The notes beneath the pieces were generated by a model. The model did no database searches. It was not told the DNA's origin and saw only the letters and a list, made by a program, of their open reading frames with translations. A DNA stretch of 46,278 nt, taken from the IMG/VR virus record IMGVR_UViG_3300027782_004013, positions 1-46,278 of that record; one strand, written 5' to 3'. The stretch comes from a virus. This document shows positions 4,278-38,943 of the stretch, piece by piece. A program made the translations under genes and the position numbers. The stretch's first letter is position 1. Each line of letters starts with the position of its first letter.

Positions 4278-5036
4278 ATGAATAAATTTTCTCATAATCA
4301 CACAGTAAGAACATTACAGATAATAACTCATCTTCTGGCCGTATGGGGAATAATTCATGTGGCGAATACGCAGATGTACAGTTTGTTGGCACTGTCTGTG
4401 ATCGTATACTGGATAATCGGAGTACTAGGAATCAACATAGGCTATCATAGACTATTGAGTCATCGCAGTTTTAAAACTCACGTATTTTGGGAAAAGTTAT
4501 GCAGCCTAATTGGAGTGATTACTATAGTAGGCAGTCCACTGGCATGGATAGCTGTACATCGGCAGCATCATAGAATCACAGACAGACCAGGCGATCCTCA
4601 CAGTCCTATTCTGTTAGGTAATTTTTCTGCATGGTTTGGATTTTGGAAAATGCCAAAACTAGATCTCAAATTAGTAAGAGATATCAGAGAAAATCAATTC
4701 CAGCGATCTTTGCACAAAAACTATCTGTTGATAATCGCTGCATGGGTATCTTTGTTGTTGATAATCAATCCGTGGTTAGTGATTTATGCATTTGCAATTC
4801 CTGCATGCCTGTGTCTACACAGTACCAGTACTATCATCGTGATAGCACATCGTCACGGATATCGTCCGTATCCCGACGTTAAAGATCACAGTAGAAACAG
4901 TTGGATAGCTAACTTGATCACACTAGGTGAAGGATGGCATAACACCCATCATGCCAAACCATATGCGTGGAACAATCAGGAACGATGGTGGGAATTTGAT
5001 ATACCCGCATATATTATAAGATTTATTAAAGAATGA
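4278..5036 (+). CDS. Membrane fatty-acid desaturase (acyl-CoA/acyl-lipid type), copy 1
   Basis: A 252-residue integral membrane protein with the three histidine boxes of the diiron fatty-acid desaturase family: HRLLSH, HRQHH followed by DPHSP, and WHNTHH near the C-terminus. Hydrophobic helices flank the boxes (roughly residues 15-55 and 140-175). The family introduces a double bond into an acyl chain at the membrane using O2 and an electron donor. Chain length and regiochemistry cannot be told. The stop overlaps the start of the next desaturase (ATGA), so the two are translationally coupled. It follows the last tRNA by 14 bases without its own promoter. Confidence 0.93.
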   Translation: MNKFSHNHTVRTLQIITHLLAVWGIIHVANTQMYSLLALSVIVYWIIGVLGINIGYHRLLSHRSFKTHVFWEKLCSLIGVITIVGSPLAWIAVHRQHHRITDRPGDPHSPILLGNFSAWFGFWKMPKLDLKLVRDIRENQFQRSLHKNYLLIIAAWVSLLLIINPWLVIYAFAIPACLCLHSTSTIIVIAHRHGYRPYPDVKDHSRNSWIANLITLGEGWHNTHHAKPYAWNNQERWWEFDIPAYIIRFIKE

Positions 5037-5797
5037 AAAAATTTGGATTTAATTTTTGGGCAGTGTTTTTGCCCTTTCATTTTTTTGGCATCCTTGCATT
5101 GTTCTACGTACAACAATATTGGCAAGCACTATTAATTTTTTGGTTTCTAATAGGTGTCATTGGCAACGGAGTAGCTGCTCACAGATATTTCGCACACGGC
5201 CAATTCCACACATGGACTCCTGTTCGTTGGGTGTTAGGCATATTAGCCACCCTCGGTGCTATCGGCCCTCTTAACTATTGGGTAATACAACACAAAGCAC
5301 ATCATCTAAGATCAGATACAATCAACGATCCCCACAGTCCTCAGCACAACAGTTGGTTTTATGTTTTTTATGCTTGGACATTCCCACAAGAAAATAATCA
5401 AAAAGAATATCTCAAAGATCGATATGCGGTTAAACTAGCAGTGCAGTTATTGCGAGATCCCTTCTATGCATTCTTCCACAAGCATCATTATAAAATAATT
5501 TTTATATTTTGCAGTATATTGATATTGATAGATCCGGTTTATTTCTTGATCTATTGTCTAGCATACTGTATAGACTTTTTTAGACTAGGTGCTGTGAATT
5601 ACTGGTGCCATCGATCAGGCTATAGAAATTTTGAATCCAATGACGCCACTACCAATAATTTATTGCTTGGCTGGTTGGGTATGGGATTCGGATGGCACAA
5701 CAATCATCATGCACATCCTGGTAGATTAATACTACATCACCGTTGGTGGGAAATTGACATCGAAGGGTATATTGGATGGCTGTTAAAAAAGCCTTGA
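5033..5797 (+). CDS. Membrane fatty-acid desaturase, copy 2
   Basis: A 254-residue desaturase with histidine boxes HRYFAHG, HKAHH and WHNNHH, and four or so hydrophobic segments. It is clearly related to the preceding gene but strongly diverged, so it probably places a second double bond or acts on a different chain. It overlaps the first gene by four bases. It converges on the radical SAM gene, whose stop is only two bases away, with no terminator between. Confidence 0.93.
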   Translation: MKKFGFNFWAVFLPFHFFGILALFYVQQYWQALLIFWFLIGVIGNGVAAHRYFAHGQFHTWTPVRWVLGILATLGAIGPLNYWVIQHKAHHLRSDTINDPHSPQHNSWFYVFYAWTFPQENNQKEYLKDRYAVKLAVQLLRDPFYAFFHKHHYKIIFIFCSILILIDPVYFLIYCLAYCIDFFRLGAVNYWCHRSGYRNFESNDATTNNLLLGWLGMGFGWHNNHHAHPGRLILHHRWWEIDIEGYIGWLLKKP

Positions 5798-5798
5798 A

Positions 5799-7304
5799 TT
5801 ATTTTTTAGTATAATTCAATTTGCCTAATACATAATTCTTAAGATACTGATATACACCAGCATTGTCATAATATGTAGTAGTCTCAGCCGCATGTCCGGT
5901 TATCACTTCTCTAGTATCTACCCATTTTACATTTGCTGCCTGTTCAAATGTCATATTAGCTGTGGTAGCTATCTCGCCAATGAGCCAAATGCTGGTATAG
6001 AATTCTCGATTAGTAATCAACGGATGTGTTAAAATTAACTTCCAGGTATCTTCATATGTAGTACCTGTATGTGTATTTTTCCAATTTAGTACACCTGTGG
6101 TGTTTGAACCGTTGTCTTTGTCTAGATCTACATATCCATATTTCTCATAGTTGTGTGACATTAATGAAATATCATTGCGGTTCCAATTATCTGGATGTGG
6201 TATCCATAACGGAAAACTAGTTACGCGAGTATTGGGTAAATTTTCGTATATCCACGATACTCCTTGTAAAAATCTTTCATGTGTTTCGTATGGCAAACCT
6301 GCTATAAGGCTTATCGATGATCGATACAACATCCTCGCAGAAAAATAATCTTGTATATCTTTTAGACCTTGTTTGATTTTATCAGGGTGCATGCCTTTTT
6401 TAACAGCCTTGCCTGTGGTATGATTTAGAGTTTCAATGCCATAATGATGACCACCGTACCCCATTGCAATCATGCTGTCCCAAGTTTTAGGATTGGATAT
6501 TTTTAGATCAGCTCTGGTAAACCCGCTTATCCATGGCTTGAAATTTAATTGGCCTATTGTTGCATTTCCAAATAGTTCCAGTTTTTCTGGACTCACATTA
6601 CCAGTGCTGTCTGCAGTGAAAAACGTTCGGACACCAAACGTATCATTTAGATATTTTAAATTATCAATATAGTCCTGAACGTCTCTGAAATTATCCCCCT
6701 TGATTCCCAACGGAGTAAAATTACAAAAATCACATTCAAATTTACATCCCCTACTCCATTCAACTCCTAGTTGATCGTTGTGGTGTATAAAATCTCGATC
6801 TTCATATTTTACAAATAACTTTTTCATATAGATGGAAGGGTAATCACTTCCATGTATGAGTTTACCATCGCGATACAATGTGTATTTTAATTTTTCAGTT
6901 CCAGTTCCTAATAGATGTTTAACCAATGCCATTATGGCATTCTCACCGTATCCATTGATATAGTAATGGGCTTTGATTGGACTGCTATTAACTTTCTGAC
7001 TTCCTACAATAATTTTTACTCTAGGAAAATTAGTCTTTATCCAATCAATGATATCATGAAATCCTTGTACTACGTGTTCTTTCGCATGCCAAGTTCCCCA
7101 TGTGTCACTGAACGCCACAAACACTGTATTTGTTGTTATTCGACTTTTGGTAATTTCAAGAAGATAATTGTAAGGTATTATTCCAGCGTAATCAATTACC
7201 TCGACATCCCAGTCTTCATCTCTGAGATGATTGGCTATTCTGTGAGCTCCTAAATTTCTAGCAATATATGTGTTTTGAGCACTGAATATTAATGCGTGAT
7301 TCAT
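5799..7304 (-). CDS. Radical SAM protein with B12-binding-like N-terminal domain
   Basis: A 501-residue protein. Residues 187-194 read CKFECDFC, the Cx3Cx2C iron-sulfur motif of radical SAM enzymes, inside a TIM-barrel-type region (about 180-420). Residues 1-130 resemble a Rossmann-like cobalamin-binding domain, as in B12-dependent radical SAM proteins, but the DxHxxG cobalamin ligand motif is not seen. Such enzymes methylate or rearrange unactivated carbons, often on lipids or natural products. It is the last gene of a three-gene minus-strand operon (diiron protein, radical SAM, radical SAM). The substrate is unknown. Confidence 0.88.
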   Translation of the reverse strand: MNHALIFSAQNTYIARNLGAHRIANHLRDEDWDVEVIDYAGIIPYNYLLEITKSRITTNTVFVAFSDTWGTWHAKEHVVQGFHDIIDWIKTNFPRVKIIVGSQKVNSSPIKAHYYINGYGENAIMALVKHLLGTGTEKLKYTLYRDGKLIHGSDYPSIYMKKLFVKYEDRDFIHHNDQLGVEWSRGCKFECDFCNFTPLGIKGDNFRDVQDYIDNLKYLNDTFGVRTFFTADSTGNVSPEKLELFGNATIGQLNFKPWISGFTRADLKISNPKTWDSMIAMGYGGHHYGIETLNHTTGKAVKKGMHPDKIKQGLKDIQDYFSARMLYRSSISLIAGLPYETHERFLQGVSWIYENLPNTRVTSFPLWIPHPDNWNRNDISLMSHNYEKYGYVDLDKDNGSNTTGVLNWKNTHTGTTYEDTWKLILTHPLITNREFYTSIWLIGEIATTANMTFEQAANVKWVDTREVITGHAAETTTYYDNAGVYQYLKNYVLGKLNYTKK

Positions 7305-8743
7305 CGTCCTTGCAGGCCTTTCAATTGTTCTTTATACAGAGAAAATAATTTGATTTCTTGATCGTACAAATCGCCGGTCAGCGATAAGATCTCTGCTTTA
7401 GGTTTGTTCGCTACATCCTTCAATGTTACTCCTGTGCAGGTAAGTGCTCCTAAAGCCCACATAAAGAATCTGTCACGGTAATTAATATACTGATTTAATT
7501 CAACTGCAAGTTTATAAGCATCCATATAAGTTGAATCGCCCCACCGCCAATTAAACATTTCATTTTCGTCTGGCCATGTAATTTCTAAATCTTTACTGTC
7601 GACTTCCCAAGTACTCTGAGTATAGGTTTTCGAAACACGGTCATCGATCATGATTAATGGTTTGAATTGATATGTACTAATTTTTGATTTAAGAAACCAG
7701 TCGGCGGTTTCAAAATGATGTTCTCTAGATACTCCAGGAATTCCTGCTATTAAGCTGGCATCGATATGTGTATTAGGCCATTTATCTTGTATGTGTAATA
7801 AAAAGTCTTTACCACGTTTTGCACTCCATGGCTTTAGCACCAGTTTAGCTGCCTCAGGATGAAATGTTTCGATACCAAACAATGTACCACGTTGTCCACA
7901 TTCGTGTAAAATATCTTGAGTGTGAGGATGTGCATCTACAAGGTCGGCTCGGTTATATGCTAAAAATTCTAATTTAAATGGTAGTTTATGATAGATATTG
8001 GCTAGATTTTCAATTCTTTTTACATCACTGTTAAATGTTTCATCTATGAAATAATAACTAGTAGTGCCAAAGATTTCATACATTTCTGTAAATTCATCAA
8101 CCATCAGTTCTATATTTTTCTCGTCCGTTCCGCTGCGCTTTCCGAGATTAGGATTACGACAAAACGGACATTTGAAAATACATCCCCGTCCCCATTCTAG
8201 TGGTAATGTTTCGCCGGGTAAAATACAATCATGTTTTTTATACACAAATCTATGTGAACTTATATCAAATTTTTTACGCTGTAATTGTGTCACCATACTC
8301 TTATTGGTCAGCTCGTCTAGAAATTTCAACAGCCAATCTTCACCATATGTGGACTCTGATATATGATCAAAAACTTCTAGGCCTTGTAAAAGATCATGTA
8401 ATCTATGTCCGCCCAAGACTGTTTGTATCTTAGGGAACTGTGATTTTAATTCTGTCAGGGCAGAGTGTATATTTTCTGGAACCGACCTAGCATGAACATT
8501 CATCATGAGATCTCCACTCCAGGTTGACCACATGGTAGAACTAGCACCAATCATCAAGGTGTCTTTGTCGATGAACATTTTTGTTGTATCTATCAGTTCT
8601 TGGGGACTGAATAAATGAGTAAATTCTATTACCTGACAGGTGTACCCGTGCTCTTCAATCCATCTTGCTAGCACATAACAAGATACTATACGCCACATTA
8701 ATGGTCGATACCCTAGCTGACTGTACAAGATAACGTTTGCCAT
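7301..8743 (-). CDS. Radical SAM protein, B12-binding-like N-terminal domain, second copy
   Basis: A 480-residue paralogue of the downstream gene. The Cx3Cx2C motif CIFKCPFC is at residues 188-195, preceded by PLEWGRG, as the other copy is preceded by GVEWSRG. The N-terminal Rossmann-like region again lacks an obvious cobalamin histidine. It overlaps the next gene by four bases (ATGA) and shares one base with the upstream gene, so all three should be made in fixed ratio. Two related radical SAM enzymes side by side suggest successive steps on one substrate (inference). Confidence 0.88.
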   Translation of the reverse strand: MANVILYSQLGYRPLMWRIVSCYVLARWIEEHGYTCQVIEFTHLFSPQELIDTTKMFIDKDTLMIGASSTMWSTWSGDLMMNVHARSVPENIHSALTELKSQFPKIQTVLGGHRLHDLLQGLEVFDHISESTYGEDWLLKFLDELTNKSMVTQLQRKKFDISSHRFVYKKHDCILPGETLPLEWGRGCIFKCPFCRNPNLGKRSGTDEKNIELMVDEFTEMYEIFGTTSYYFIDETFNSDVKRIENLANIYHKLPFKLEFLAYNRADLVDAHPHTQDILHECGQRGTLFGIETFHPEAAKLVLKPWSAKRGKDFLLHIQDKWPNTHIDASLIAGIPGVSREHHFETADWFLKSKISTYQFKPLIMIDDRVSKTYTQSTWEVDSKDLEITWPDENEMFNWRWGDSTYMDAYKLAVELNQYINYRDRFFMWALGALTCTGVTLKDVANKPKAEILSLTGDLYDQEIKLFSLYKEQLKGLQGR

Positions 8744-9495
8744 TATATGCTATAGTTTTGAATTATTAAATCCCAATATTTTTCTCTTGCCTGTATGGCT
8801 TTGATAGCTGCTTGGGTGGCTTCTTGCTGTCTTATTAGATCGTTATCACAGAGTTCCTCGAGTAGGCGTGTTGCTGCTGGTCCATGTTCATTGCCATCGA
8901 TATCGACATGTCTTGCAAGATACCATTTAAATTTATCGCAAGGAACATTTGCTGCTTGTAATTGTGTTAACACAGACTGAAACTGTTCCGGCAATAGATT
9001 TTCTCTACCAAATGCCAGTGCCGCACATATTACCCAGGGTTTTTTAGAATCAATAAATTCAAAAGTAGTCATCATGAACTGCTTGGCAGGTTCGGGAACA
9101 TTTGAATGCGTTACTGCGGATGCAAATCCCTGTTGTTTTACATAGGCTGGCCAGTTGGTTATCCAGGTTGTTTCCAATCCAATTTCTTGCATGGCAGCAA
9201 TGTAACTTTCAAAATGACTGGCATGCTCTCTGTCAATAGTTATATCACTTTCTTCACCTAGTATTATTTCATTTACCCATCTACGAGCAGAACCGCTGTA
9301 TTCTGGCGACCACGGCGATCCGCTAGGTGCAAGTACCTGCTGCAAAGATTTAACCAAACACATAAAATCCCATACGGCAAATACATGATTAACCATAAAG
9401 ATCTGAAGATCCTTAATCGAATTAAGACTCTGTCTTGAGGTTAGCGGATGTTGACGCAATTTCCACTGAGCAGCTTCTATTAATTTCCAGTTCAT
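8743..9495 (-). CDS. DUF3050 haem-oxygenase-like diiron protein
   Basis: A 250-residue all-helical protein with DUF3050 hallmarks: HPL near the start, HVFAVWDFM, EHASHFE and RHVDIDGNEHG. The latter three supply the Glu and His residues expected to bind a di-iron centre in haem-oxygenase-like diiron oxidases. Relatives in that superfamily include UndA, which turns fatty acids into terminal alkenes, so an acyl or amino-acid substrate is plausible but unproven. I start it at 9495 rather than ten codons earlier, because a perfect TATAAATA lies four bases upstream of this ATG, so the message should be leaderless. It is first in the operon with the two radical SAM genes. Confidence 0.83.
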   Translation of the reverse strand: MNWKLIEAAQWKLRQHPLTSRQSLNSIKDLQIFMVNHVFAVWDFMCLVKSLQQVLAPSGSPWSPEYSGSARRWVNEIILGEESDITIDREHASHFESYIAAMQEIGLETTWITNWPAYVKQQGFASAVTHSNVPEPAKQFMMTTFEFIDSKKPWVICAALAFGRENLLPEQFQSVLTQLQAANVPCDKFKWYLARHVDIDGNEHGPAATRLLEELCDNDLIRQQEATQAAIKAIQAREKYWDLIIQNYSI

Positions 9496-9499
9496 GGGA

Positions 9500-9507
9500 T
9501 ATTTATA
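9500..9507 (-). promoter_or_regulatory. T4-type late promoter, leaderless spacing
   Basis: Perfect TATAAATA on the minus strand, four bases before the ATG at 9495. In T4 the late transcript starts about six bases past this motif, which places the RNA 5' end at the start codon. Confidence 0.7.
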
Positions 9508-9573
9508 TGAATGCAATCTCAACAAAATTAAAGTATATGTTAATGAAATTTATAAAAGCCCGTACCGGTTACA

Positions 9574-9581
9574 CATAAATA
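9574..9581 (+). promoter_or_regulatory. T4-type late promoter
   Basis: CATAAATA, 22 bases before the ATG at 9604, with a GGAG ribosome site at about 9592 between them. This is a conventional short leader. Confidence 0.6.
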
Positions 9582-9603
9582 ACAGTATCTTGGAGTAGTA
9601 AAT

Positions 9604-11226: not shown

Positions 11227-12534
11227 TCATTTATTGATTTTTCTTGTTTCAGCAAAGTGCTTTAATAAAACTGGTCCTGCTAAAGATTGTATATTTAAAT
11301 TAGGAGCTATCTGTTTACTGACTCCTTCTACTACCAAAATAGTCTTGGCTAACAACGTAAATTGGTAAGGTACATTTACATCAAAATTTTCCAATGAACG
11401 AAATAAATCAGTTACTACCTTCCCCAAAGAAAAATCTTGTTGTCGTCGATTTACGATTGTTTGAGAAACTGTTTGCAGAGCATTTTCTATTTCCGTACTG
11501 TTTGTGGTCAACGTTAACCAACCCGCTTCTGTGATCAGAGAAATAATTTTTTTGATATTATTAGTATACAATGCAAATAAAATTTTTAATAAAGTAGTTC
11601 GATCCTGTATAGACAGTTCACCCATAATGCCAAAGTCTAGATATATTCTTGTACCGTCGGGCTTTATCCAAAGATTCCCCGGATGTTGATCAGCATGAAA
11701 AAACCCATCTCGAAAAATTTGGACCATTAGACTTTCTAACCCCTGTGATACCAATTTGTCTGTGTCTACTCCTTGAGCACGAAGATCATCAACATGATTT
11801 ATAGGAATACCTTGCATCCTCTCCATAGTCAAAATATTCTTGCTTGACCATTGACTGTATATTCGAGGTATATGAACATATGTAAATTCCTGCATGTTTT
11901 CAGAGAATCGTGTAATACTTGCAGCTTCTTTACGTAGATCTAGTTCAGCTAAAATGCTCTGGCTCAGTTCATCAATGATTTTTGAAATTTTTAATTTCTT
12001 GATGCTTGGTTTATATATTTCAACTAAGCTAACAACTTGACGAAATAGTGTAATGTCTTTTTTAATTTGTATTTCAATATTAGGTCTTAGTATTTTTACA
12101 GCTACCAGTTCACCAGTAATTAACTCTGCATAATGTACCTGAGCCACACTGCCTGCTGCAACAGGAGTTAGATCAAAACTAGAAAAAATTTCATTCAACG
12201 ATAACCCTAGGTCATCCTCAAGAATTTTCACAGCAGTGTGAGAATCGAATGGTTCTACTGATTCTCTTAATAGTTCAAGTTCCTTAACTATACTAGGGGG
12301 AACGATATCCGTACGAGCGGATAACATCTGTCCAAATTTTACATATACTGGACCAAGTTCTTCAAGGGCTTTTCTAATACGGTATCCTACAGTACCGTCG
12401 ATTGGTTTATGTGCAAATACGCTGCGGATTGACTGACCAGCAAATAATAATAATCGTGTTTTGGCTCTTCGGAATAGATACTCATCCAATCTATACTTAA
12501 TCACAACTCCAATGATATCACTTATTCTCAACAT
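11227..12534 (-). CDS. ubiB: UbiB/ABC1 (AarF, ADCK) family atypical kinase
   Basis: A 435-residue protein with the family motifs in order: KFGQMLSARTDI (the KxGQ loop), AGSVAQVHYAE (the A-rich nucleotide loop), VAVKIL, HADQHPGN (catalytic loop) and LDFGIMG (metal-binding DFG). In bacteria UbiB supports ubiquinone biosynthesis and isoprenoid-lipid handling at the inner membrane. A phage copy is unusual. The two hydrophobic C-terminal helices of cellular UbiB are not evident. A start at 12612 would add 26 residues overlapping the divergent gene; I choose the internal ATG at 12534. Confidence 0.9.
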   Translation of the reverse strand: MLRISDIIGVVIKYRLDEYLFRRAKTRLLLFAGQSIRSVFAHKPIDGTVGYRIRKALEELGPVYVKFGQMLSARTDIVPPSIVKELELLRESVEPFDSHTAVKILEDDLGLSLNEIFSSFDLTPVAAGSVAQVHYAELITGELVAVKILRPNIEIQIKKDITLFRQVVSLVEIYKPSIKKLKISKIIDELSQSILAELDLRKEAASITRFSENMQEFTYVHIPRIYSQWSSKNILTMERMQGIPINHVDDLRAQGVDTDKLVSQGLESLMVQIFRDGFFHADQHPGNLWIKPDGTRIYLDFGIMGELSIQDRTTLLKILFALYTNNIKKIISLITEAGWLTLTTNSTEIENALQTVSQTIVNRRQQDFSLGKVVTDLFRSLENFDVNVPYQFTLLAKTILVVEGVSKQIAPNLNIQSLAGPVLLKHFAETRKINK

Positions 12535-14509: not shown

Positions 14510-15412
14510 TTATAACTCTATTGTATAATTCAAATTGTTGGCATATTTGGAAATGCTGGCCGTTAGCAAAGAATCTAATTTCTTCGAGTGCCACATAGCG
14601 TTGACTATAATTTGATAACTAGTCTTACCGTGATAGTCAATACCATAGACTTGGGTGCCGTTACTCCAACAAAAGCTGTTGGTATCGTCTGGAAGATCAA
14701 TATATCGAGTTTCCCCCGTTTCTATGTCTGACACATATATTGTAGGTTGTGTGTTCTCATCGTACAGCATTATTCGAAACTCAGTTGGACATTTCCAGGC
14801 CCATGATTGTTCTCTATGAGGAACAATATCTTTTTTAGTTTCAACTATTAAAATATTCGACAGAGAATATATTGGGAATTGAAACATAATCTTAGAAATA
14901 AGATCAAAAAATATCTTATGCTTATATAACTTTTTACTAAAGGCACCAATCGGAGTACGACCTTGTATGTGTCCTGTTTTATTAGAAAACTGACTAGTAG
15001 TCATCACTCCGTTATTATATAAATCGTGTAGGTTAAAATCTATTAAACAACCTGATGTAATGTATAATCCATAGAACTCTGCAGAATCAAAAGATTCATT
15101 TGTTTTTGCAAGGTCTATCTTTTCTCTTTCCCAAATCTCTTTAAACTCATCGAAATTGTCAATTTTAAATTTTGGTAGGGCAAGAGGCAACCATTTAATT
15201 CCTTTAAATTTTTCTCCAAGATCAACCATATAAGTTTGATAGTAATCGGGTATCGGATAAGGTTTGGTCCACGATGCGTATGAAAATTTTCCGTTAGATT
15301 GCCTACAAGGTCCGAGTTTAGTTAAACTAGGATTCATTACAGTATTGTCGAACTGATTAACCTTCGCCTGTTCTCGTGCTAGATCAATTAGCTCTTGTTT
15401 GTTTTCTATCAT
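14510..15412 (-). CDS. Oxygenase-like paralogue with altered metal site
   Basis: A 300-residue homologue of the upstream gene, sharing WKCPTEFR, the MLxDENTQPTxYV strand and FCWSNG. Where the upstream copy has HRD, this one has HRE (PHREQSW). The distal histidine region reads QVYGIDYHGKTSYQ instead of SMHGSTYNGKRKF, so the distal His is replaced by Tyr. The 2-His-1-carboxylate facial triad is therefore probably broken or rewired. It may be a regulatory or non-catalytic partner. It overlaps the upstream gene by four bases. Confidence 0.65.
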   Translation of the reverse strand: MIENKQELIDLAREQAKVNQFDNTVMNPSLTKLGPCRQSNGKFSYASWTKPYPIPDYYQTYMVDLGEKFKGIKWLPLALPKFKIDNFDEFKEIWEREKIDLAKTNESFDSAEFYGLYITSGCLIDFNLHDLYNNGVMTTSQFSNKTGHIQGRTPIGAFSKKLYKHKIFFDLISKIMFQFPIYSLSNILIVETKKDIVPHREQSWAWKCPTEFRIMLYDENTQPTIYVSDIETGETRYIDLPDDTNSFCWSNGTQVYGIDYHGKTSYQIIVNAMWHSKKLDSLLTASISKYANNLNYTIEL

Positions 15413-16236
15413 ATTTCAAGTTTATAATTTAATCTATCTTTATATTTTGTAATACTACGCTCAAGCAAATCGTCGGTCTTCTTAGAATGTTGTATCATTG
15501 AAGCACAAAGAATAAATTTACGTTTGCCATTATATGTAGATCCGTGCATTGATTTACCGTTTGACCAACAAAACGTATTTGTGTCGGCTGGAAGATCAAC
15601 AAATACAGGTTCTGAATTATCATCTCCAACATATAAAGTCGGTTGTGTGTTTTCGTCAAACAACATAGATCGAAATTCAGTCGGACACTTCCAATACACA
15701 CCTTTATCTCTATGAGGACTGATAGGCATCTTACTTTCCCAAATATACAAGCTCAAGAGAGTGTGTATTGGATAATAAGTATTAACTTGATCTAATATAC
15801 GTTCAAACATTGGAATCTTACCTGTATATAACTTTCCAGCAAAACTATTGATTTCAAGAGGAATTAAAGGATGCTGAAAAAGATGAAGGCCATTAAATTG
15901 ACTAACATTCCAACTACTTTTATCTTTCCAAGGGTGTTTTTCTTTTGTCCACGGTTCTGCAATATCAGGTTTAACACGTAATACATCGTGACTTTGATGA
16001 TTCCATATATCTAAAAATTCATCATAGTTATCAAATTCAATCTTCGGAGTGTCAATTGGTAACCAAACAATTCCTTTATACTTCTCTTCTAGATTCCGCA
16101 TATATGTTTTGTACTCATCGGAGAATTGATCCCAACCAACCGCCTCTTCTTCTTTTGGAGTACCAACTGCAATCTTTGCATTTTTAAGTAAAGTTTTAGG
16201 ATCTTTTGCTCTAAACGCATCCATAATTTCGCCCAT
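15409..16236 (-). CDS. Putative 2-oxoglutarate/Fe(II)-type oxygenase
   Basis: A 275-residue protein with HRD in SPHRDKGVYWKCPTEFR and a distal His plus basic residue in SMHGSTYNGKRKF, as expected for HxD...H iron oxygenases. The N-terminal 130 residues are helical and of unknown role. The start may be four codons later (16224), where an AGGA sequence lies 11 bases upstream. A TGTAAATA motif at 16252-16259 on this strand is a probable late promoter. It is first in a three-gene oxygenase-like operon. Confidence 0.7.
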   Translation of the reverse strand: MGEIMDAFRAKDPKTLLKNAKIAVGTPKEEEAVGWDQFSDEYKTYMRNLEEKYKGIVWLPIDTPKIEFDNYDEFLDIWNHQSHDVLRVKPDIAEPWTKEKHPWKDKSSWNVSQFNGLHLFQHPLIPLEINSFAGKLYTGKIPMFERILDQVNTYYPIHTLLSLYIWESKMPISPHRDKGVYWKCPTEFRSMLFDENTQPTLYVGDDNSEPVFVDLPADTNTFCWSNGKSMHGSTYNGKRKFILCASMIQHSKKTDDLLERSITKYKDRLNYKLEI

Positions 16237-16277: not shown

Positions 16278-17444
16278 TTAATATAATGATTCAAAAATAG
16301 CAATAGAGGTTCGACCACCGAACCCAAAACTAGCCTTCATAAAGATATTATTTTTTAACTCTACTGCTTCAGTGATTATCCTTGGATCGTCACTTAACGG
16401 ATTTGACAAATTATAATTAGGCTGTAGGTATCGATTTTTCACAGCTTCTAATCCATACGCAGATTCTATAAGTCCACAGGCACTCATAGTGTGTCCTAAG
16501 TACCCTTTGAATGACACTATAGGAATATTAATGTTTTCAAACACACGTTGAAACACATCTAGTTCAATGTCGTCACCGATTAATGTACTAGTAGCGTGTG
16601 AATTAAAAAAAGAAATATCATGTGCAGATAACTCAGCTTGAGTTAATGCTTGATTTATTATCTTGATTTGATGTTCACAAGACGGATCGTGGGCAGTCAT
16701 ACTAGTTACTTTGGCACCACTGGCTATTGATCTCAATTTGGCTCTAGGTGTTAGATTATGCGTTTTTAAAGTTTCTTCATCGCAGATATACCAAAGTGTG
16801 CCGCCTTCGCCTTGTAAAAATCCATCTCTGTTTTTATCAAATGGTTTACATTGTCCTCCATCCTCTGTAGAGATGGCACTGGTACATTGCCAATAATATT
16901 GTAACGTAGCAAACAGTGGCATATCAACTGCTCCAACAAGAGCAGCAGATGTTTGGCCAGTTTGTATTAACATCGCGGCAAATTGTAGATTGAACATGCT
17001 GCTAGAGCATGCTGCATTTAAACTGGTATTGATACCTTCTAGTTTTAACTTAGAGGATATTATAGCACTGAGCAAATCATGATTAGCACTGAATAATTTT
17101 GTAGGACTAAATCTTCTCTGCTGTGACGAGAACGCCCGTGTAAACTCTTCTTTTACCGCAGCACCGATTCCGAATGACCCGTAAATCACAGCAGTGTCCT
17201 TGGGCATAGAATGCCTGCTAGACATCTCATTTATCAGATCTAACACTAGACGAAATGGAGTATAGCTGTTGTCCACATAGTTCATGTGGAATCCCTTGGT
17301 GCTCATTACATGAGGAAATTCTTCTGTATTATATCGTTTTATGGTTTCAGCTCCAGGAGTAGCTGCCATATTTTTATAATTTTCTTTTATCTGTACTCCG
17401 AGACAATCTCTAACCTGGTAGTCTACGATATAAACATCTTTCAT
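16278..17444 (-). CDS. Beta-ketoacyl-ACP synthase (KAS, FabF-like)
   Basis: A 388-residue condensing enzyme. The catalytic triad is intact: C146 in NAACSSSM, H283 in NSHATSTLIGDD, H318 in GYLGHTMSACG, with the C-terminal GFGG loop. It would condense an acyl primer with malonyl-ACP by decarboxylation. The protein is slightly shorter than E. coli FabF, and its N-terminus is divergent, closer in feel to the KAS proteins of dedicated natural-product clusters than to housekeeping FabF (judgement, not a search). The start overlaps the ACP stop (ATGA), coupling it to its carrier protein. Confidence 0.93.
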   Translation of the reverse strand: MKDVYIVDYQVRDCLGVQIKENYKNMAATPGAETIKRYNTEEFPHVMSTKGFHMNYVDNSYTPFRLVLDLINEMSSRHSMPKDTAVIYGSFGIGAAVKEEFTRAFSSQQRRFSPTKLFSANHDLLSAIISSKLKLEGINTSLNAACSSSMFNLQFAAMLIQTGQTSAALVGAVDMPLFATLQYYWQCTSAISTEDGGQCKPFDKNRDGFLQGEGGTLWYICDEETLKTHNLTPRAKLRSIASGAKVTSMTAHDPSCEHQIKIINQALTQAELSAHDISFFNSHATSTLIGDDIELDVFQRVFENINIPIVSFKGYLGHTMSACGLIESAYGLEAVKNRYLQPNYNLSNPLSDDPRIITEAVELKNNIFMKASFGFGGRTSIAIFESLY

Positions 17445-17809
17445 TTTTTCAACATCTTTGAGGGATCCTGGCTATCTGTGATGTATCCTATTAGATCTTT
17501 CCATTTCAATAGTGTGGCAATTTCTTTGTCATCAATCACACAACCAAATTCTTCTTCGATCTGTATTACCAATTCCAAGATGTCAATACTATCAACCTCG
17601 TTGTTTTTACGCCTTGCTTGGGCTATAGATTCTGGAAGTGATTCTAATTCCTTAGCCAGTTCTTCGTCGTTGAGAATTTTTAGGTCCTTGATGCTCATGT
17701 CTGGCGGAAGTGGGTATGTCAATTCTAATTTGAGATAATCGTTGATCATTTCGATCAATCGGTGCTCAACTTGTTCTTCATTCCTTGGGGTCCAAGATTC
17801 CGTTGTCAT
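17441..17809 (-). CDS. Acyl carrier protein with N-terminal extension
   Basis: A 122-residue protein. EVDSIDILELVIQIEEEFG around residue 74 is the ACP signature; S74 is the expected phosphopantetheine attachment site. Normal ACPs are about 78 residues. Here some 40 extra N-terminal residues precede the four-helix core, which could dock a specific partner. RBS GGAGA precedes the ATG, and TGTAAATA lies just upstream. It sits between FabZ and KAS in one operon. Activation would need a phosphopantetheinyl transferase, and one is encoded at 31160. Confidence 0.88.
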   Translation of the reverse strand: MTTESWTPRNEEQVEHRLIEMINDYLKLELTYPLPPDMSIKDLKILNDEELAKELESLPESIAQARRKNNEVDSIDILELVIQIEEEFGCVIDDKEIATLLKWKDLIGYITDSQDPSKMLKK

Positions 17810-17829: not shown

Positions 17830-17837
17830 TATTTACA
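17830..17837 (-). promoter_or_regulatory. T4-type late promoter (one mismatch)
   Basis: TGTAAATA on the minus strand, 20 bases before the ACP start, overlapping the end of FabZ. It would allow ACP and KAS to be transcribed late, separately from FabZ. Confidence 0.5.
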
Positions 17838-18294
17838 TAGATATGCCGGCCACTGCTTTTAATTTTCCGTGGCTAACTGTGATATTATCTACTGAGGCTG
17901 ATGCATCAAATTCAAAAATCTTTCTTGCACGTCTAGTTAATCGAGTGTGTATTACTAGTTGATCGCCGGGAACAACTACTTTCTTAAATCTTACTTGATC
18001 TGCGGCGGTAAAAAGAATGCCGCCTTGAATGAATTCATGTAGTAGGTCATTGTTTTGTAGATATTTGAAAGCCAATACCGTACTAGCCTGTGCCATAGCT
18101 TCGATCATCATAACACCGGGCATTATGTGATTCCCAGGAAAATGTCCTTGTACATAGGGTTCATTAACAGTGAAATTTTTAATCGCTGTAAGAGTACTTT
18201 CATCATAGTCTAAAACTCGATCTATCATCAAAAAAGGATAACGATGAGGCAATATGTCTAACAGTTCAGCGGAGGTGATCGTTTTCATATTCAT
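17833..18294 (-). CDS. fabZ: 3-hydroxyacyl-ACP dehydratase FabZ
   Basis: A 153-residue hot-dog-fold dehydratase with LPHRYPFLMIDRV, the catalytic loop QGHFPGNHIMPGV and the following EAMAQ glutamate. It removes water from 3-hydroxyacyl-ACP to give trans-2-enoyl-ACP. The length is normal for FabZ. An ATG 15 bases upstream overlaps the TATAAT box of the minus-strand promoter and is probably not used. From 18294 the transcript would begin at or next to the ATG. It is first in the FabZ-ACP-KAS operon. No ketoreductase or enoyl reductase is present in the window. Confidence 0.93.
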   Translation of the reverse strand: MNMKTITSAELLDILPHRYPFLMIDRVLDYDESTLTAIKNFTVNEPYVQGHFPGNHIMPGVMMIEAMAQASTVLAFKYLQNNDLLHEFIQGGILFTAADQVRFKKVVVPGDQLVIHTRLTRRARKIFEFDASASVDNITVSHGKLKAVAGISM

Positions 18295-24845: not shown

Positions 24846-27563
24846 ATGAACTCAAAAAAACTTTTACCCAAATTACTGTTATCGGCAATACTAACAGTTT
24901 ATTCATTTAGTTATGCTCAAAATTTAAAAACAGTTGGACATCCTGCCATGGAGAGTCCACATGTTAACCCAATCTCCCTGTGCGGTAATTATGTTTATGT
25001 AACGAACACTCCGGCTGGAACAGTTGATGTAATTGATCGCAAAACTCAAAAGATCTTTACACGAATTAATGTTGGGGTTGATCCAGTTAGTATTGCAGTT
25101 CGACCCGATGGCAAAGAAATATGGGTGTCTAATCATGTATCAGACTCTGTTAGTGTTATCGACTCTGACCCGAAAAGCCCAACGTTTCATATTGTTGTTG
25201 CTACAATACAAGAGTTTAATCATCGTAAGGCTACTTTATTCGATGAGCCGGTTGGTATAGCATTTGCCAGCAACAGTAAGGCATATGTTGCGCTATCATC
25301 AGAACGGCAAATTGCTGTAGTTGATGTAAAGACAAGAAAGGTAATAGATCGTTTAGAAATTAGAGCACAGGATCCCAGAGCTATTTTTGTTCAAGGAGAT
25401 CGACTCTATGTTATTCCTTTTGAATCTGGAAATAAGACTCAATTGTCTGGAGGCTACAAGCAAAATATAGATGGAAACCTAGTTACCTTTGATGCATACG
25501 AACACTCTGTTAAAAACAATAACGCACTTTCTTTAGGATACGTTTCGGATATTGTAAAACATCCAAGGCAACCGGATAAAGATTTATTTGTTTTTGATAC
25601 AAAAACAGATAGACAAATTAAGATTGTAGAAACATTGGGTACCTTGCTCTACGGATTAACTGTGGATTCAAAAGGACGTATCTTTATCGCTCAAACAGAT
25701 GCACAAAATGATGCTAACGGTCGGGCAGGTACCAAGAAACACGGTCTTGCTGAACTACAAAATAGACCGTACCTAAATCAAATCACCAGTGTACAATTCA
25801 ACGACAGCAGAGTAGATAAGAAATTTCTAAACTTAGAACCACTACCTCCTGCCAATCCTACCAAGGATCAAGCACTGTCTACCCCATACGCTATACAAAT
25901 ATCTGATGACGATTCTATAATTATATCCTCGGCTTCAGCATCAGATAAAATTTTTGCACTGGATTCTCGAAGTGGAGAAATTTTAAGTCAGGTAACTGTG
26001 GGTGCAGGTCCTAGAGGCATTGCTCTTGAAAAAGGTAAATTATCTAAAGCATGGATTTATAATGCTTTAGATAATACTGTAATGTTGCTTGATGTATCTA
26101 ACACAACAGATATTAAATTAAGCACAACAATATCTTTAGAAGATCCTACACACGCCACTGTTAAGCGTGGACGTATTGCCTTTAATTCAGCAATGGCAAG
26201 TTCAACTGGTACCTTCTCTTGTGCTAGTTGTCATCCTAACGGACATTCTGATCAACTACTATGGGTACTAGATACTCCTATTGTTTCTGGCGGCAAACAA
26301 ATCATGCCACGACTATCAATGCCAGTTCGGGGACTTAGAGATACAGAACCATACCACTGGGACGGAACCAAAGGCGATCCATACGGCGGTATTAATAGTG
26401 CAAATTTGTTTTTTCCTGCTTCTTCTAATTGTAAAATAAACAATCCTATAAGTTGTCTAAGACAATTAATTGATGATAATCTAGCTACGACTATGAGTTT
26501 AGTATCTAAGGATAAACAAAGAGGCGCTTTAACCGAAGATGAACGTAACGATATGGCAGTATATCTGTTGAGCATTCCATATCCGCCTGCACCAAAAAGA
26601 CCCTATACGAATATACTCACTAATGAGGCACGGCAAGGATTTTCATTGTTTCATGTTGAAGGTGATAACGATCCGAAGTTTAATCAGCCTGTGGTATGTG
26701 GTAACTGTCACCGATTACCCTTTCTTTCTAGTGCAGGTACGATAGCTCCTCGCACTGGTATGAAGGCAACCACTTGGCGCGGTGCATACGACCGTTATCT
26801 AATTAGTCCACAGGCACGGGGCATGATAATAGATTTTCCTTGGATATCGGCGATAGCAGAAAAAGGAAGAGATGAAAGAAGCACCTGGCAATTAACTTGG
26901 AGTGGCAGCACTGGACCAAGACATAGATTTAATCCAGTATGGGACATGGTCTTAGAAGGCAGTACAGGATTTTCAGGAACATTTGCTAGACAGGTGACAG
27001 TGTCTTCGGATGATTTAAAAGACCACCATGATGATGATTTAATTTCTGCAATGGAGAATGCCGCAGGACAAGGCGCAGTGGTACTAGAAATCGATGGAAT
27101 ATTCTTAGACGACATAAAAGCAAAAAGGATTGAACTACAATACGTTACCGGTGTATACGTTGACAAGTCTAATAAAAAATCTTACACAAAAAATGAACTA
27201 TTACAACTAGCATCACAGGAAAAATTTGTTGGAACTTTTACAGCAAGACACGGAGTCAACGCAGATGTTGATAGTCCGCAACCAGCATTGTGGTCATTAG
27301 GGGCAATTCATGATCAACGTAAACAAGACTTTCCAACTGTTACTACTAGACGTCTTAGTATGACTATTAGCGGCCGTCATTTTAAAGACGATGCTCAAAT
27401 ATTTGTAGATGGTGTGCGTGTTAACGGTGCTGTTAGTGTTAAAAGCAATGAAAAAGTAGTAATTACTCTGGCCAATGCACCGACCGCAGGTATGCACTTG
27501 CTACAGGTACAAGTACCAGATGGAATGTTCAGTAACGACTTTATATTCTACGTTAAAGAATAA
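24846..27563 (+). CDS. Exported beta-propeller di-haem c-type protein (YncE/MauG-like) with IPT-like domain
   Basis: A 905-residue protein. Residues 1-24 form a signal peptide (basic start, hydrophobic LLLSAILTVYSF, cleavage after SYA). Residues 40-440 contain repeated beta-propeller strands (VDVIDRKTQKIF, VSVIDSDP, IAVVDVKTRKVI), as in YncE-type proteins. Two CxxCH haem c sites, C459-H463 (CASCH) and C618-H622 (CGNCH), resemble the di-haem cytochrome c peroxidase/MauG layout. The C-terminus (ISGRHFKDDAQIFVDG) resembles an IPT/TIG domain. It should act in the periplasm or at the surface and depends on host haem attachment. Such a protein is most unexpected in a phage. It has its own promoter. 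Confidence 0.85.
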   Translation: MNSKKLLPKLLLSAILTVYSFSYAQNLKTVGHPAMESPHVNPISLCGNYVYVTNTPAGTVDVIDRKTQKIFTRINVGVDPVSIAVRPDGKEIWVSNHVSDSVSVIDSDPKSPTFHIVVATIQEFNHRKATLFDEPVGIAFASNSKAYVALSSERQIAVVDVKTRKVIDRLEIRAQDPRAIFVQGDRLYVIPFESGNKTQLSGGYKQNIDGNLVTFDAYEHSVKNNNALSLGYVSDIVKHPRQPDKDLFVFDTKTDRQIKIVETLGTLLYGLTVDSKGRIFIAQTDAQNDANGRAGTKKHGLAELQNRPYLNQITSVQFNDSRVDKKFLNLEPLPPANPTKDQALSTPYAIQISDDDSIIISSASASDKIFALDSRSGEILSQVTVGAGPRGIALEKGKLSKAWIYNALDNTVMLLDVSNTTDIKLSTTISLEDPTHATVKRGRIAFNSAMASSTGTFSCASCHPNGHSDQLLWVLDTPIVSGGKQIMPRLSMPVRGLRDTEPYHWDGTKGDPYGGINSANLFFPASSNCKINNPISCLRQLIDDNLATTMSLVSKDKQRGALTEDERNDMAVYLLSIPYPPAPKRPYTNILTNEARQGFSLFHVEGDNDPKFNQPVVCGNCHRLPFLSSAGTIAPRTGMKATTWRGAYDRYLISPQARGMIIDFPWISAIAEKGRDERSTWQLTWSGSTGPRHRFNPVWDMVLEGSTGFSGTFARQVTVSSDDLKDHHDDDLISAMENAAGQGAVVLEIDGIFLDDIKAKRIELQYVTGVYVDKSNKKSYTKNELLQLASQEKFVGTFTARHGVNADVDSPQPALWSLGAIHDQRKQDFPTVTTRRLSMTISGRHFKDDAQIFVDGVRVNGAVSVKSNEKVVITLANAPTAGMHLLQVQVPDGMFSNDFIFYVKE

Positions 27564-31119: not shown

Positions 31120-31159
31120 GTGATTTATGCTCGGTGAGACTAAACGAGATAACTACTGT

Positions 31160-31534
31160 ATGATCATAGGCACAGGCATCGACATAGTGGATCTTAGAAG
31201 GTTTCACGACATGGATTCTGATAGATTAAATCGTCTGGCTAAGAGGATACTTACCGACGACGAATTTGTTGAGTTCCAACAACTAGATAAAGTCAAACAT
31301 TCTGTGCATCTCGCCAAAATATGGAGCATAAAAGAATCCATAGGCAAGGCATTCGGCACAGGAATATCCAACGATAGTGTATGGAAAAACATGCGGATTT
31401 ACAAAAACGCATTAGGACAGCCTCAGGTACAGTTTCTAGGTGCATTGGCAAGAAAAACTGTAATCTGTCATATCAGCGTTAGCCACGATGGCGACTATCT
31501 AGTATCTAATGCTGTATTAGATCATGTACATTGA
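31160..31534 (+). CDS. acpS: Holo-ACP synthase AcpS (4'-phosphopantetheinyl transferase)
   Basis: A 124-residue protein. IGTGIDIVDLRRF (the Mg-binding aspartate), KRILTDDEFVEF and KIWSIKESIGKAFGTGI (the catalytic WxxKEAxxKA-type helix) are the AcpS signatures in order. AcpS transfers phosphopantetheine from CoA to the serine of ACP. The start at 31160 gives the usual AcpS N-terminus; an upstream in-frame ATG would add 11 residues. It overlaps the next gene by 11 bases. With two ACPs encoded in the window, the phage appears to activate its own carrier proteins. Confidence 0.92.
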   Translation: MIIGTGIDIVDLRRFHDMDSDRLNRLAKRILTDDEFVEFQQLDKVKHSVHLAKIWSIKESIGKAFGTGISNDSVWKNMRIYKNALGQPQVQFLGALARKTVICHISVSHDGDYLVSNAVLDHVH

Positions 31535-32072
31535 AATTTGGATTCCGGGAACGGACGCAGAGTTAGACAAGTTATTTGAACAATTACGAATTCAACAACA
31601 CAGCGATATCACGCATCCCCTGTATAAAAATTATTCTGCTCAGGACTTCAAATCATGTGCTGCATTGTCTATTACTTTTGACAACAACGATCCTATTGTT
31701 GCCAGCAGTATTTTGGCTAGAACATGCTGGCCCAAAAACACCTACAGGATATTAAACAGATTTTGGAAGGTGCACGAACATAGACTCACAGCTCTTGACA
31801 GATCTACCAAGGCTACAGCACTGTCTGAGACAGCCAAGGCGCATGTAGCGTATGCTGAAAACACATTGGAAGCTGATCTAGTGTTTATGAGCAGACAATA
31901 TGATCATTGGCAAAATCTAGCTGTGCATTACCTAAAAGAAAAAACAGGAATAGAATTTAAATACGACAACTATCGATATCTCGTCTGCGATAATTCTCAA
32001 GATCAAACCTGCTGGCAGAGAATAGCCTACAAAGGTGATGAACAACTTTTAACACAATGGCAAAAACAATGA
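31524..32072 (+). CDS. Hypothetical protein in the AcpS-desaturase operon
   Basis: A 182-residue protein. The segments NDPIVASSILARTCWPKNTYRILNR and a later VAYAENTLEADLVFMSRQ suggest an alpha/beta acyltransferase-like core, but no GNAT nucleotide loop is clear, so no function is assigned. It overlaps AcpS by 11 bases and the desaturase by four (ATGA at 32069), so it is translationally tied to both. Confidence 0.65.
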   Translation: MYIEIWIPGTDAELDKLFEQLRIQQHSDITHPLYKNYSAQDFKSCAALSITFDNNDPIVASSILARTCWPKNTYRILNRFWKVHEHRLTALDRSTKATALSETAKAHVAYAENTLEADLVFMSRQYDHWQNLAVHYLKEKTGIEFKYDNYRYLVCDNSQDQTCWQRIAYKGDEQLLTQWQKQ

Positions 32073-32860
32073 AAGAAATACTCTTAGGTATGATAAGAAT
32101 GTACAGTATTATGCCAGTGCTTGCAGTTGGCTTGTATTCGATATTCTCGATAATTATCGGAACAGCTCCCGGTTGGTGGTGGTGGGCAACAGTGTCAGGC
32201 TATGTTTGTATTATGATGTTGGGAGTGAGCGCAGGTTATCATAGACTACTGAGCCATAGAGCATTCCAGGTGCATCCTTGGACGAAATCTCTGTTGTTAT
32301 GGTTCGCCGCACTGTCATGCCAAGGCAGTCCGATCTTTTGGACTACCATACACAGAGGATATCATCATAGGTATACAGATCAATCAAAAGATCCGCACAG
32401 CCCACAACAGGGATTTTGGCACAGCTATATTTTATGGATGTTTAAAATACGCACAGGAGATCACAACACCAAATTTGTTGTGGACATACTCAAAGATCCT
32501 ATCTGCGTGTTTTTCCATAAGTATTACAATCATATAATCTGGATTAGTCATATCGGTATTGCTGCGATCAGTGTGGACTTATGGTTGTATGCTGTGATAT
32601 TACCTGCATTTATAACCATAAACAGTTTTGCTCTAACAAATACTCTCACACATTTGCCTCACCTCGGTTATAAGAATCATGCCACTAACAATCATGGTGT
32701 GAATATAAGCTGGCTGTTTCCTATAGTACTGGGAGAAGCATGGCACAATAACCATCACGCAGATGCAAAAAATCCTTGTTTGGGCAAACGTTGGTGGGAG
32801 ATCGATCCCACCTATTGGTTGATCAGATTAATTCGCACTGATCAATCTTTGAATCCCTGA
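32069..32860 (+). CDS. Membrane fatty-acid desaturase, copy 3
   Basis: A 263-residue desaturase with histidine boxes HRLLSHRAF, HRGYHHRYTDQSKDPHSP and WHNNHHADAKN, and hydrophobic helices around residues 15-50 and 155-195. The boxes are closest in wording to copy 1 at 4278. The ATGA overlap with the preceding gene favours 32069 over the ATG 12 bases upstream. Its 3' end overlaps the convergent ACP gene by 33 bases. Confidence 0.93.
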   Translation: MKEILLGMIRMYSIMPVLAVGLYSIFSIIIGTAPGWWWWATVSGYVCIMMLGVSAGYHRLLSHRAFQVHPWTKSLLLWFAALSCQGSPIFWTTIHRGYHHRYTDQSKDPHSPQQGFWHSYILWMFKIRTGDHNTKFVVDILKDPICVFFHKYYNHIIWISHIGIAAISVDLWLYAVILPAFITINSFALTNTLTHLPHLGYKNHATNNHGVNISWLFPIVLGEAWHNNHHADAKNPCLGKRWWEIDPTYWLIRLIRTDQSLNP

Positions 32861-37770: not shown

Positions 37771-38943
37771 GTGGCAACCAAACTGAAAAAAGCCAGCATA
37801 GCTATTCGTCAAAACAAAGGTCGAGATCTAAGTCCTAAATGGGACGGACATGAGGCTATGTCTACTGATCAATTCATGAAACACTTTCGTGTAAGCATGG
37901 AATGGTACCGTTTGGAATCCGGTGGTAAGGAACTGAAACCAAAAGTCATTAACTGGATGAGTGGCAACGGCTACACCAAAGAACAAATCAAAGCATTCAA
38001 AGATACCAAAGACAATCGATGTGGTACAACTATGGGCGCCATTGCTGCCAATTTGTTGAGAGGCATGCCTGCTGTCCGTTCGAACTTCAATGAAGGACGT
38101 GACACTGCGGAATGGTTACACAAGGCCATTAAAGCAGTCATAGAAGAAGGCAAGAATGATGAAGTTGAGTCTGAAGACACTGTCACAGAAGTCAAAATCA
38201 CAGCTCAGCCCTCGATCCAAGAACGTGTGAAAGAAGCAGCAATGAAAATGACTGTGGAAATCGAAGACGCTATTGAAAGTTTTCAAACTGATCCAGAAGC
38301 ATTTGATCCAAAAGCATTTAAATTATTAAACCTATTGCGTGGTCGTCAGGTCAAAGCCGCTCATGCTCGTATTATCAAAGAATTGTACAGCCGCAACTAT
38401 AATGAACTTGTAGAAGCAGCGACCACAAAAGATGAACAACTCAAAGAAGCCTATGCTCACCTGAGCAAAGCTAACTTGAAAAAGATCACCTTGTTCTACA
38501 ACGAGATATTATCAGCCTGTGATATGCTGGCACAAGAAGCCAAGATCAATAAAAAACCACGTGCGCAAAAACCCACCGACAAGTCTAAAATTGTTGCCAA
38601 GATGAAGTATCTCAAACAAGATGACAAATTGAAGATCGTGTCTATCAATCCGCAGGACATTATCGGGGCCAAAGAATTGTGGGTGTTTAACGTGAAAACT
38701 AGAAAATTAGGCAAGTATGTGACCACAGAGTTCAGTGAGCTCAATGTCAAGGGCACTACAATTACAGGGTTCGACGAGATCAAAAGTGTAGCAAAAACTC
38801 TACGTAAGCCGGAAGAACAGCTCAAAGAGTTCAAGGCTGCGGGAAAAGTGGTGCTACGTAAGTTCTTAGAGGATATCAAAGCTGTGGATATCAAACTCAA
38901 CGGCAGGCTCAACGAGGATACTGTGTTGTTAAAAGTACAATAA
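37771..38943 (+). CDS. Large helical T4-like phage protein of unknown function
   Basis: A 390-residue Lys-rich protein with a GTG start preceded by AAGGAG. The first 120 residues (SPKWDGHEAMSTDQFMKHF, WMSGNGYTKEQIKAFKD) look like a folded helical domain, the middle is helical and charged, and the C-terminal 120 residues are alpha/beta (KLKIVSINPQDIIGAKELWVF). It is of a type found in T4-like marine phages (from memory). A strong promoter precedes it and a strong terminator follows, so it is a single-gene transcription unit. Confidence 0.7.
   Translation: MATKLKKASIAIRQNKGRDLSPKWDGHEAMSTDQFMKHFRVSMEWYRLESGGKELKPKVINWMSGNGYTKEQIKAFKDTKDNRCGTTMGAIAANLLRGMPAVRSNFNEGRDTAEWLHKAIKAVIEEGKNDEVESEDTVTEVKITAQPSIQERVKEAAMKMTVEIEDAIESFQTDPEAFDPKAFKLLNLLRGRQVKAAHARIIKELYSRNYNELVEAATTKDEQLKEAYAHLSKANLKKITLFYNEILSACDMLAQEAKINKKPRAQKPTDKSKIVAKMKYLKQDDKLKIVSINPQDIIGAKELWVFNVKTRKLGKYVTTEFSELNVKGTTITGFDEIKSVAKTLRKPEEQLKEFKAAGKVVLRKFLEDIKAVDIKLNGRLNEDTVLLKVQ

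Follow-up and report, generated by a model that had tools for sequence, protein, structure and literature searches.

We analysed a linear virus record from IMG/VR (46,278 bases in full, hereafter the window) in which a DUF3050 protein is encoded together with two radical S-adenosylmethionine (SAM) proteins in an operon at 5799-9495. The window is a fragment of a T4-like jumbo phage, an origin that a first-pass annotation of the DNA had missed; it contains 19 tRNA genes, and jumbo phages such as PA5oct provide the top matches of a conserved protein encoded at 37771-38943 (for PA5oct, 42% across 62% of its length). The operon and its upstream region are laid out as follows.

8743-9495, minus strand: DUF3050 protein, a HamA-type haem-oxygenase-like diiron oxidase by Pfam, ligands and structural model, 250 aa
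7301-8743, minus strand: radical SAM A (rSAM A), B12-type architecture by Pfam and structural model, 480 aa, CxxxCxxC at residues 188-195
5799-7304, minus strand: radical SAM B (rSAM B), paralogue of A, called by Pfam and by its copies in other phages, 501 aa
8741-8745, minus strand: TAATG overlap (1 nt) between the stop of DUF3050 and the start of rSAM A, read from the sequence
7301-7304, minus strand: ATGA overlap (4 nt) between the stop of rSAM A and the start of rSAM B, read from the sequence
9496-9603, no strand assigned: divergent intergenic stretch, putative operon promoter region by gene layout

All three open reading frames (ORFs) lie on the minus strand and meet at TAATG and ATGA junctions, as expected of the three-gene operon with overlapping starts and stops described at first pass. 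Such overlaps suggest co-transcription and coupled translation only, and the fixed stoichiometry that had been read from them does not follow. The DUF3050 start is the ATG at 9495, and the same Met begins its close phage relatives. Because the frames of the trio are kept at 55-71% identity in other viruses, the three ORFs are far beyond chance. A few bases upstream of the DUF3050 start, at 9500-9507 on the minus strand, lies TATAAATA, the T4 late-promoter consensus; we rejected it as a promoter signal because the motif is no more frequent in the window than expected by chance. A sigma-70 scan likewise gave a score no better than that of shuffled sequence.

The identification of the DUF3050 protein as a haem-oxygenase-like diiron protein is supported by domain matches, a high-confidence structural model and the presence of all six predicted ligands. 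The protein matches Pfam DUF3050 (PF11251) at 258.6 bits (cut-off 22.2) and Haem_oxygenas_2 at 30.3 bits (cut-off 28.9), and its AlphaFold2 (AF2) model, built on 93 aligned sequences (mean pLDDT 94.4), has a haem-oxygenase-like helical fold. The nearest structure in the PDB is HamA (9vwb; Z 30.7, root-mean-square deviation 1.9, 35% identity over 240 residues), followed by CADD (Z 22.6), HrmI (22.2) and UndA (20.2, 17% identity). The comparison with UndA drawn at first pass therefore stands at the level of fold (Z ~20), but HamA is much closer, and we set aside an UndA-type reading of the protein in its favour. Six residues (Glu82, His94, Glu165, His196, Asp200 and His204), mapped by their spacing from the ligands proposed for the family (PMC4520260), are unchanged in 54 of 54 viral and 75 of 75 bacterial sequences. 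Sequence and model were both inspected for the lack of a metal site, which would have spoken against a diiron enzyme, and the six ligands are present. Three segments had been singled out as a candidate site: EHASHFE supplies a predicted ligand His and RHVDIDGNEHG a His, an Asp and a His, but HVFAVWDFM, although invariant, contains no ligand at all. HamA and MgoB are DUF3050 proteins of natural-product biosynthetic clusters (PMC3298696; PMC11659414); the reaction of HamA is itself only putative (PMC11705231), and haem-oxygenase-like diiron oxidases (HDOs) are said to specialise in amino-acid substrates (PMC13185094).

The predicted folds also support a B12-type architecture for the two radical SAM proteins, in line with the first-pass description. 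Both exceed the Pfam Radical_SAM cut-off (PF04055, 29.5 bits; rSAM A 30.5, rSAM B 33.1), whereas the B12-binding domain is matched by rSAM B below its cut-off (19.1 against 32.1 bits) and not by rSAM A. The two are paralogues with ~27% identity, and CxxxCxxC is unchanged across 43 related phage sequences. The AF2 model of rSAM A (pLDDT 93.5) has the partial TIM-barrel core of the superfamily and matches OxsB (Z 21.6) and TsrM (20.8) but also AprD4 (21.2), which has the cobalamin-type domain but is not known to carry cobalamin. Cobalamin use is likely, though putative. Neither protein reaches the cut-off of any curated NCBIfam model: the lipid-biosynthesis (ladderane) family TIGR04072 scores 51.6 bits for rSAM B and 31.8 for rSAM A (cut-off 360), and the PhpK P-methyltransferase family TIGR04479 scores 54 bits for rSAM A and 46.6 for rSAM B (cut-off 600).

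Both pairs within the operon recur in other phages, whereas the contiguous trio was seen in the window only, so that recurrence, put forward at first pass as a check, holds for the pairs. The DUF3050-rSAM A pair (58-71% identity) is found in many T4-like contigs, and every contig that covers both flanks has gp32 on one side of it and uvsX on the other; 59 homologous gp32-uvsX loci of close relatives lack the pair, which thus behaves as an insertion cassette. The rSAM A-rSAM B pair is present in five contigs (G016, G015 and three more that are near-identical), with rSAM B copies 55-57% identical. One 364-kb record, G015, holds a DUF3050-rSAM A pair and, elsewhere, an rSAM A-rSAM B pair. Its length (364,554 bp) differs from the summed lengths of G014 and G016 by no more than 15 bases, which suggests the G014/G016 phage assembled whole, although it may be a false join of the two. 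In two samples, a partnerless DUF3050 gene and an rSAM A-rSAM B pair lie on separate contigs.

The pairing of DUF3050 with radical SAM genes is phage-specific. DUF3050 adjoins a radical SAM gene in 30 of 37 viral clusters (formed at 85% identity, with some radical SAM calls based on CxxxCxxC and length), whereas the same is true of 1 in 57 bacterial clusters and, within the same viral loci, of 6 of 245 distal ORFs. A search for the same trio in bacteria had been suggested at first pass, and these counts leave recurrence there unsupported. When one array was checked against NCBIfam and PHROGs, three of its four genes matched radical SAM families; the remaining one, third in order (356 aa), had its sole match in an uncharacterised phage family. 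Across 14 lineages (formed at 65% identity), radical SAM proteins were the only family adjoining DUF3050 in at least four, and they came in two types, with B12-type enzymes in five lineages and a SPASM-type set, including a divergent third member, in five others. In the DUF3050 tree, the group containing the window (12 sequences, support 1.0) stands apart from a 36-sequence clade containing both other classes of phage DUF3050 locus (support 0.92).

DUF3050 and rSAM A had no match among 50,697 deposited phage records. In INPHARED, tblastn found no hit for any of four queries, two of them DUF3050 and two B12-type radical SAM proteins, and a DNA search of deposited phages with the L380 cluster was equally negative. 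Deposited phages yielded only distant SPASM-type relatives, for example in Achromobacter phage JWF, in which the neighbouring proteins are unlike DUF3050, and BFVD contained no significant DUF3050 fold. Elsewhere in our set, a FolE-like (GTP cyclohydrolase) gene lies immediately upstream of DUF3050 at L003:6766-8696, and five virus records (G001, G009, G010, G011 and G034; loci L048-L061 and L259) each encode 9-14 radical SAM proteins, some of them in tandem arrays that lie among 2-oxoglutarate-oxygenase-like genes.

A sister group of loci (class III) pairs DUF3050 with a candidate peptide. The usual order is a 63-89-aa Cys-rich peptide, a PapB-like SPASM radical SAM protein, two or three more radical SAM proteins and then DUF3050, an arrangement resembling clusters for ribosomally synthesized and post-translationally modified peptides (RiPPs) and represented by L203:2569-8693 (also L185, L186, L191, L195, L202, L204, L207, L209, L216, L217, L219, L220 and L380). 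The C-terminal core of the peptide reads, for example, CECQCQCDCSRGTL; invariant HxH and DD positions precede it. A profile search recovered 39 peptide loci, 25 with DUF3050 within the fetched flank; flanks are shortened in several of the other 14. The peptide leader is similar to a motif of neighbouring tail-region proteins, so the class III product could be carried on the virion or else set free as a RiPP. These clusters provide the strongest hint that a phage DUF3050 protein might act on a ribosomal peptide. Downstream of DUF3050, three loci also carry IscU and ErpA/IscA-type Fe-S assembly genes (L185:9599-10298, L177:4383-5100 and L186:10261-11560).

Building on the gene order, the protein families, the conserved ligands, the predicted folds and the repeated partnership, our leading, though tentative, explanation is that the operon encodes a phage tailoring module in which a diiron oxidase and two radical SAM enzymes act together on one substrate, for which an amino-acid or peptide unit is the likeliest candidate. 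A single message would give rise to all three proteins during infection, and they would act in turn on the same molecule. The two B12-type enzymes would attack unactivated carbon, by methylation or rearrangement, and the O2-dependent HamA-type enzyme would oxidise the same molecule by hydroxylation, desaturation or bond cleavage. The joint action is supported by the overlapping genes, by the DUF3050-radical SAM adjacency (with radical SAM the sole recurrent neighbour), by the rSAM A-rSAM B pairs and by the record that holds both pairs. The enzyme classes are well supported; for the substrate, an amino acid or peptide is our first choice and an acyl chain our second. The first choice draws on the peptides that DUF3050 follows in the sister clusters, the reported preference of HDOs for amino acids and the presence of HamA and MgoB in biosynthetic clusters. 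Candidates for such a target include proteins of the phage or of the host and an amino acid attached to the carrier protein of the acyl island described below.

Several observations weigh against this explanation. The trio in the window is surrounded by acyl genes rather than peptide genes. Neither the peptide profile search nor a scan for Cys-rich peptides found a precursor-like gene near the operon or in the class I (DUF3050-rSAM A) loci examined, and a precursor peptide in the window was rejected on this basis. Six precursor loci (L352, L363, L364 and L373-L375) have the radical SAM array without DUF3050, which would make DUF3050 optional in peptide clusters.

It is also possible, although we hold it with less assurance, that tailed phages carry their own radical SAM-diiron maturation systems and that these come in two forms with a HamA-type oxidase in common, one maturing a dedicated Cys-rich peptide and the other, that of the window, combining two B12-type enzymes with the oxidase. 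Phages are known for single metabolic genes, and a recurrent unit of diiron oxidase and radical SAM enzymes, if real, would mean natural-product-type chemistry during infection. Such modules offer a route into DUF3050, since no reaction has been proved for its biosynthetic members HamA and MgoB, and a candidate peptide substrate that is directly testable comes from the sister clusters.

The genomic surroundings of the trio might point to a different substrate. The operon sits between a fatty acid desaturase gene and an ABC1 kinase gene, inside an acyl-synthesis island of the window (4278-32860) with the following principal genes.

4278-5036, plus strand: fatty acid desaturase 1 (PF00487, 60.2 bits), overlapping desaturase 2 and convergent to the trio; syntenic in G016
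5033-5797, plus strand: fatty acid desaturase 2 (PF00487, 46.5 bits), its stop adjoining the rSAM B stop; syntenic in G016
11227-12534, minus strand: ABC1 atypical kinase-like protein (PF03109, 248 bits), on the far island side from desaturase 2
16278-17444, minus strand: ketoacyl-ACP synthase (PF00109, 74.3 bits; PF02801, 74.1 bits)
17441-17809, minus strand: acyl carrier protein (ACP; PF00550, 21.7 bits); syntenic in G016
17833-18294, minus strand: FabA/FabZ-type dehydratase (PF07977, 100.5 bits)
31127-31534, plus strand: holo-ACP synthase-type phosphopantetheinyl transferase (AcpS; PF01648, 61.4 bits); syntenic in G016
32057-32860, plus strand: third fatty acid desaturase (PF00487, 54.8 bits); syntenic in G016 and G025

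The island is syntenic in a second phage (G016, 139.4-151.7 kb; L335:5458-17725), where a Rieske protein is added; a PP-loop protein is common to both. There, the ABC1 kinase gene follows desaturase 2 immediately, without the trio, and the rSAM A-rSAM B pair lies 20 kb away. Two adjacent related genes at 14510-16236 of the window, the first without a Pfam match, are also kept as a pair in the G016 island. Two further observations concern individual genes: the window encodes at 24846-27563 a 905-aa protein, unusual in a phage, with beta-propeller and di-haem peroxidase-like segments (CCP_MauG, below cut-off), and a 228-kb phage record carries a tandem array of five fatty acid desaturase genes (L336:6235-10375).

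The trio might accordingly modify a fatty-acyl chain supplied by the island, for example to give a methylated and oxidised chain for the host membrane or a secreted molecule, which we consider rather unlikely. Besides its position within a syntenic island, fatty acid desaturases occur in 14 of 24 phage records with DUF3050/radical SAM genes and 0 of 15 related controls, and ketosynthases in 4 of 23 and 0 of 10, respectively. There is some redundancy among these records, the controls are fewer and shorter, and the genome-level association may simply mark gene-rich phages. Individual loci point the same way, with a fatty acid hydroxylase gene 1.5 kb from DUF3050 in G025, two desaturase genes 2-3 kb from it in G024, and ketosynthase and desaturase genes upstream of the G028 cluster; the top NCBIfam match of rSAM B is the lipid-biosynthesis radical SAM family, albeit far below cut-off. 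However, the fetched flanks contain an acyl gene in only 3 of 38 viral DUF3050 clusters, the proximity of desaturases to DUF3050 gives a permutation p of ~0.1, and most DUF3050 phages lack a ketosynthase. Given this lack of local enrichment of acyl genes around DUF3050, we place an acyl substrate second.

Alternatively, the common denominator could be the radical SAM enzymes and not a substrate: by removing O2 or peroxide, or by handling iron, DUF3050 would shield oxygen-sensitive radical SAM enzymes in oxic hosts. Its partnership with two different radical SAM types fits such a support role, as do the Fe-S assembly genes that follow it in three loci and the finding that hydrogen peroxide in Acinetobacter is limited by DtpC, which is also an HDO (PMC13232832). 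Yet bacterial DUF3050 genes rarely adjoin radical SAM genes (1 of 57), HamA and MgoB belong to biosynthetic clusters, and radical SAM arrays without DUF3050 exist, making this role improbable.

Nucleic-acid or nucleotide modification during phage replication would suit the class I pairs, situated between the replication genes gp32 and uvsX, as well as the QueC/QueD-like genes and ThyX of the window and the one DUF3050 gene that follows a FolE-like gene. It is very unlikely, as the gp32-uvsX site is an insertion hot spot that is empty in 59 relatives, the other DUF3050 classes are located elsewhere, often in tail regions, and no DNA- or RNA-binding feature was found. There is an equally slim chance that the three are unlinked accessory genes travelling together without a common task, a view that accounts for their contiguity in the window only and the separated pairs of other phages but not for the overlapping frames or for a pairing repeated in separate DUF3050 lineages with two partner types.

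Each enzyme family in the operon is already known, and the open-licence papers searched yielded no phage DUF3050 module, no phage-specific DUF3050-radical SAM partnership and no phage RiPP-like cluster. The class III loci resemble PapB-type ranthipeptide clusters in that a SPASM radical SAM protein with PapB-family similarity (113 bits) comes after a Cys-rich peptide; they differ in falling far below the PapB cut-off of 340 and in carrying two or three extra radical SAM genes and DUF3050, and the window differs further in having no Cys-rich peptide. Pelagimyophages carry radical SAM cassettes, and Fonsibacter phages fabF and a desaturase gene (PMC7029224), so phage-borne genes of both kinds have precedents; the portions of that report considered here mention them singly, not as an operon, and describe no DUF3050 partner. 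rSAM A shares its two-domain architecture and CxxxCxxC motif with the cobalamin-type enzymes OxsB, TsrM and CysS and with the Rossmann-bearing AprD4 (Z ~20-22), but at only 13-14% identity. Similarly, the DUF3050 protein folds like UndA, CADD, HrmI and other HDOs (Z 20-23) and has their general set of diiron ligands (PMC4520260), but is only 14-17% identical to them, and nothing points to fatty-acid decarboxylation, pABA synthesis or N-oxygenation as its activity. Its closest known counterparts are HamA, PvfA and MgoB of the fragin-valdiazen and mgo clusters, which belong to the same Pfam family and fold and have the six ligand positions in common (35% identity over 240 residues for 9vwb). Among the scanned ORFs of the window, itself a genome fragment, we found no non-ribosomal peptide synthetase, no AurF-type N-oxygenase and no cyclase to match the partners expected in those clusters; the partners of the DUF3050 protein in the window are radical SAM enzymes.

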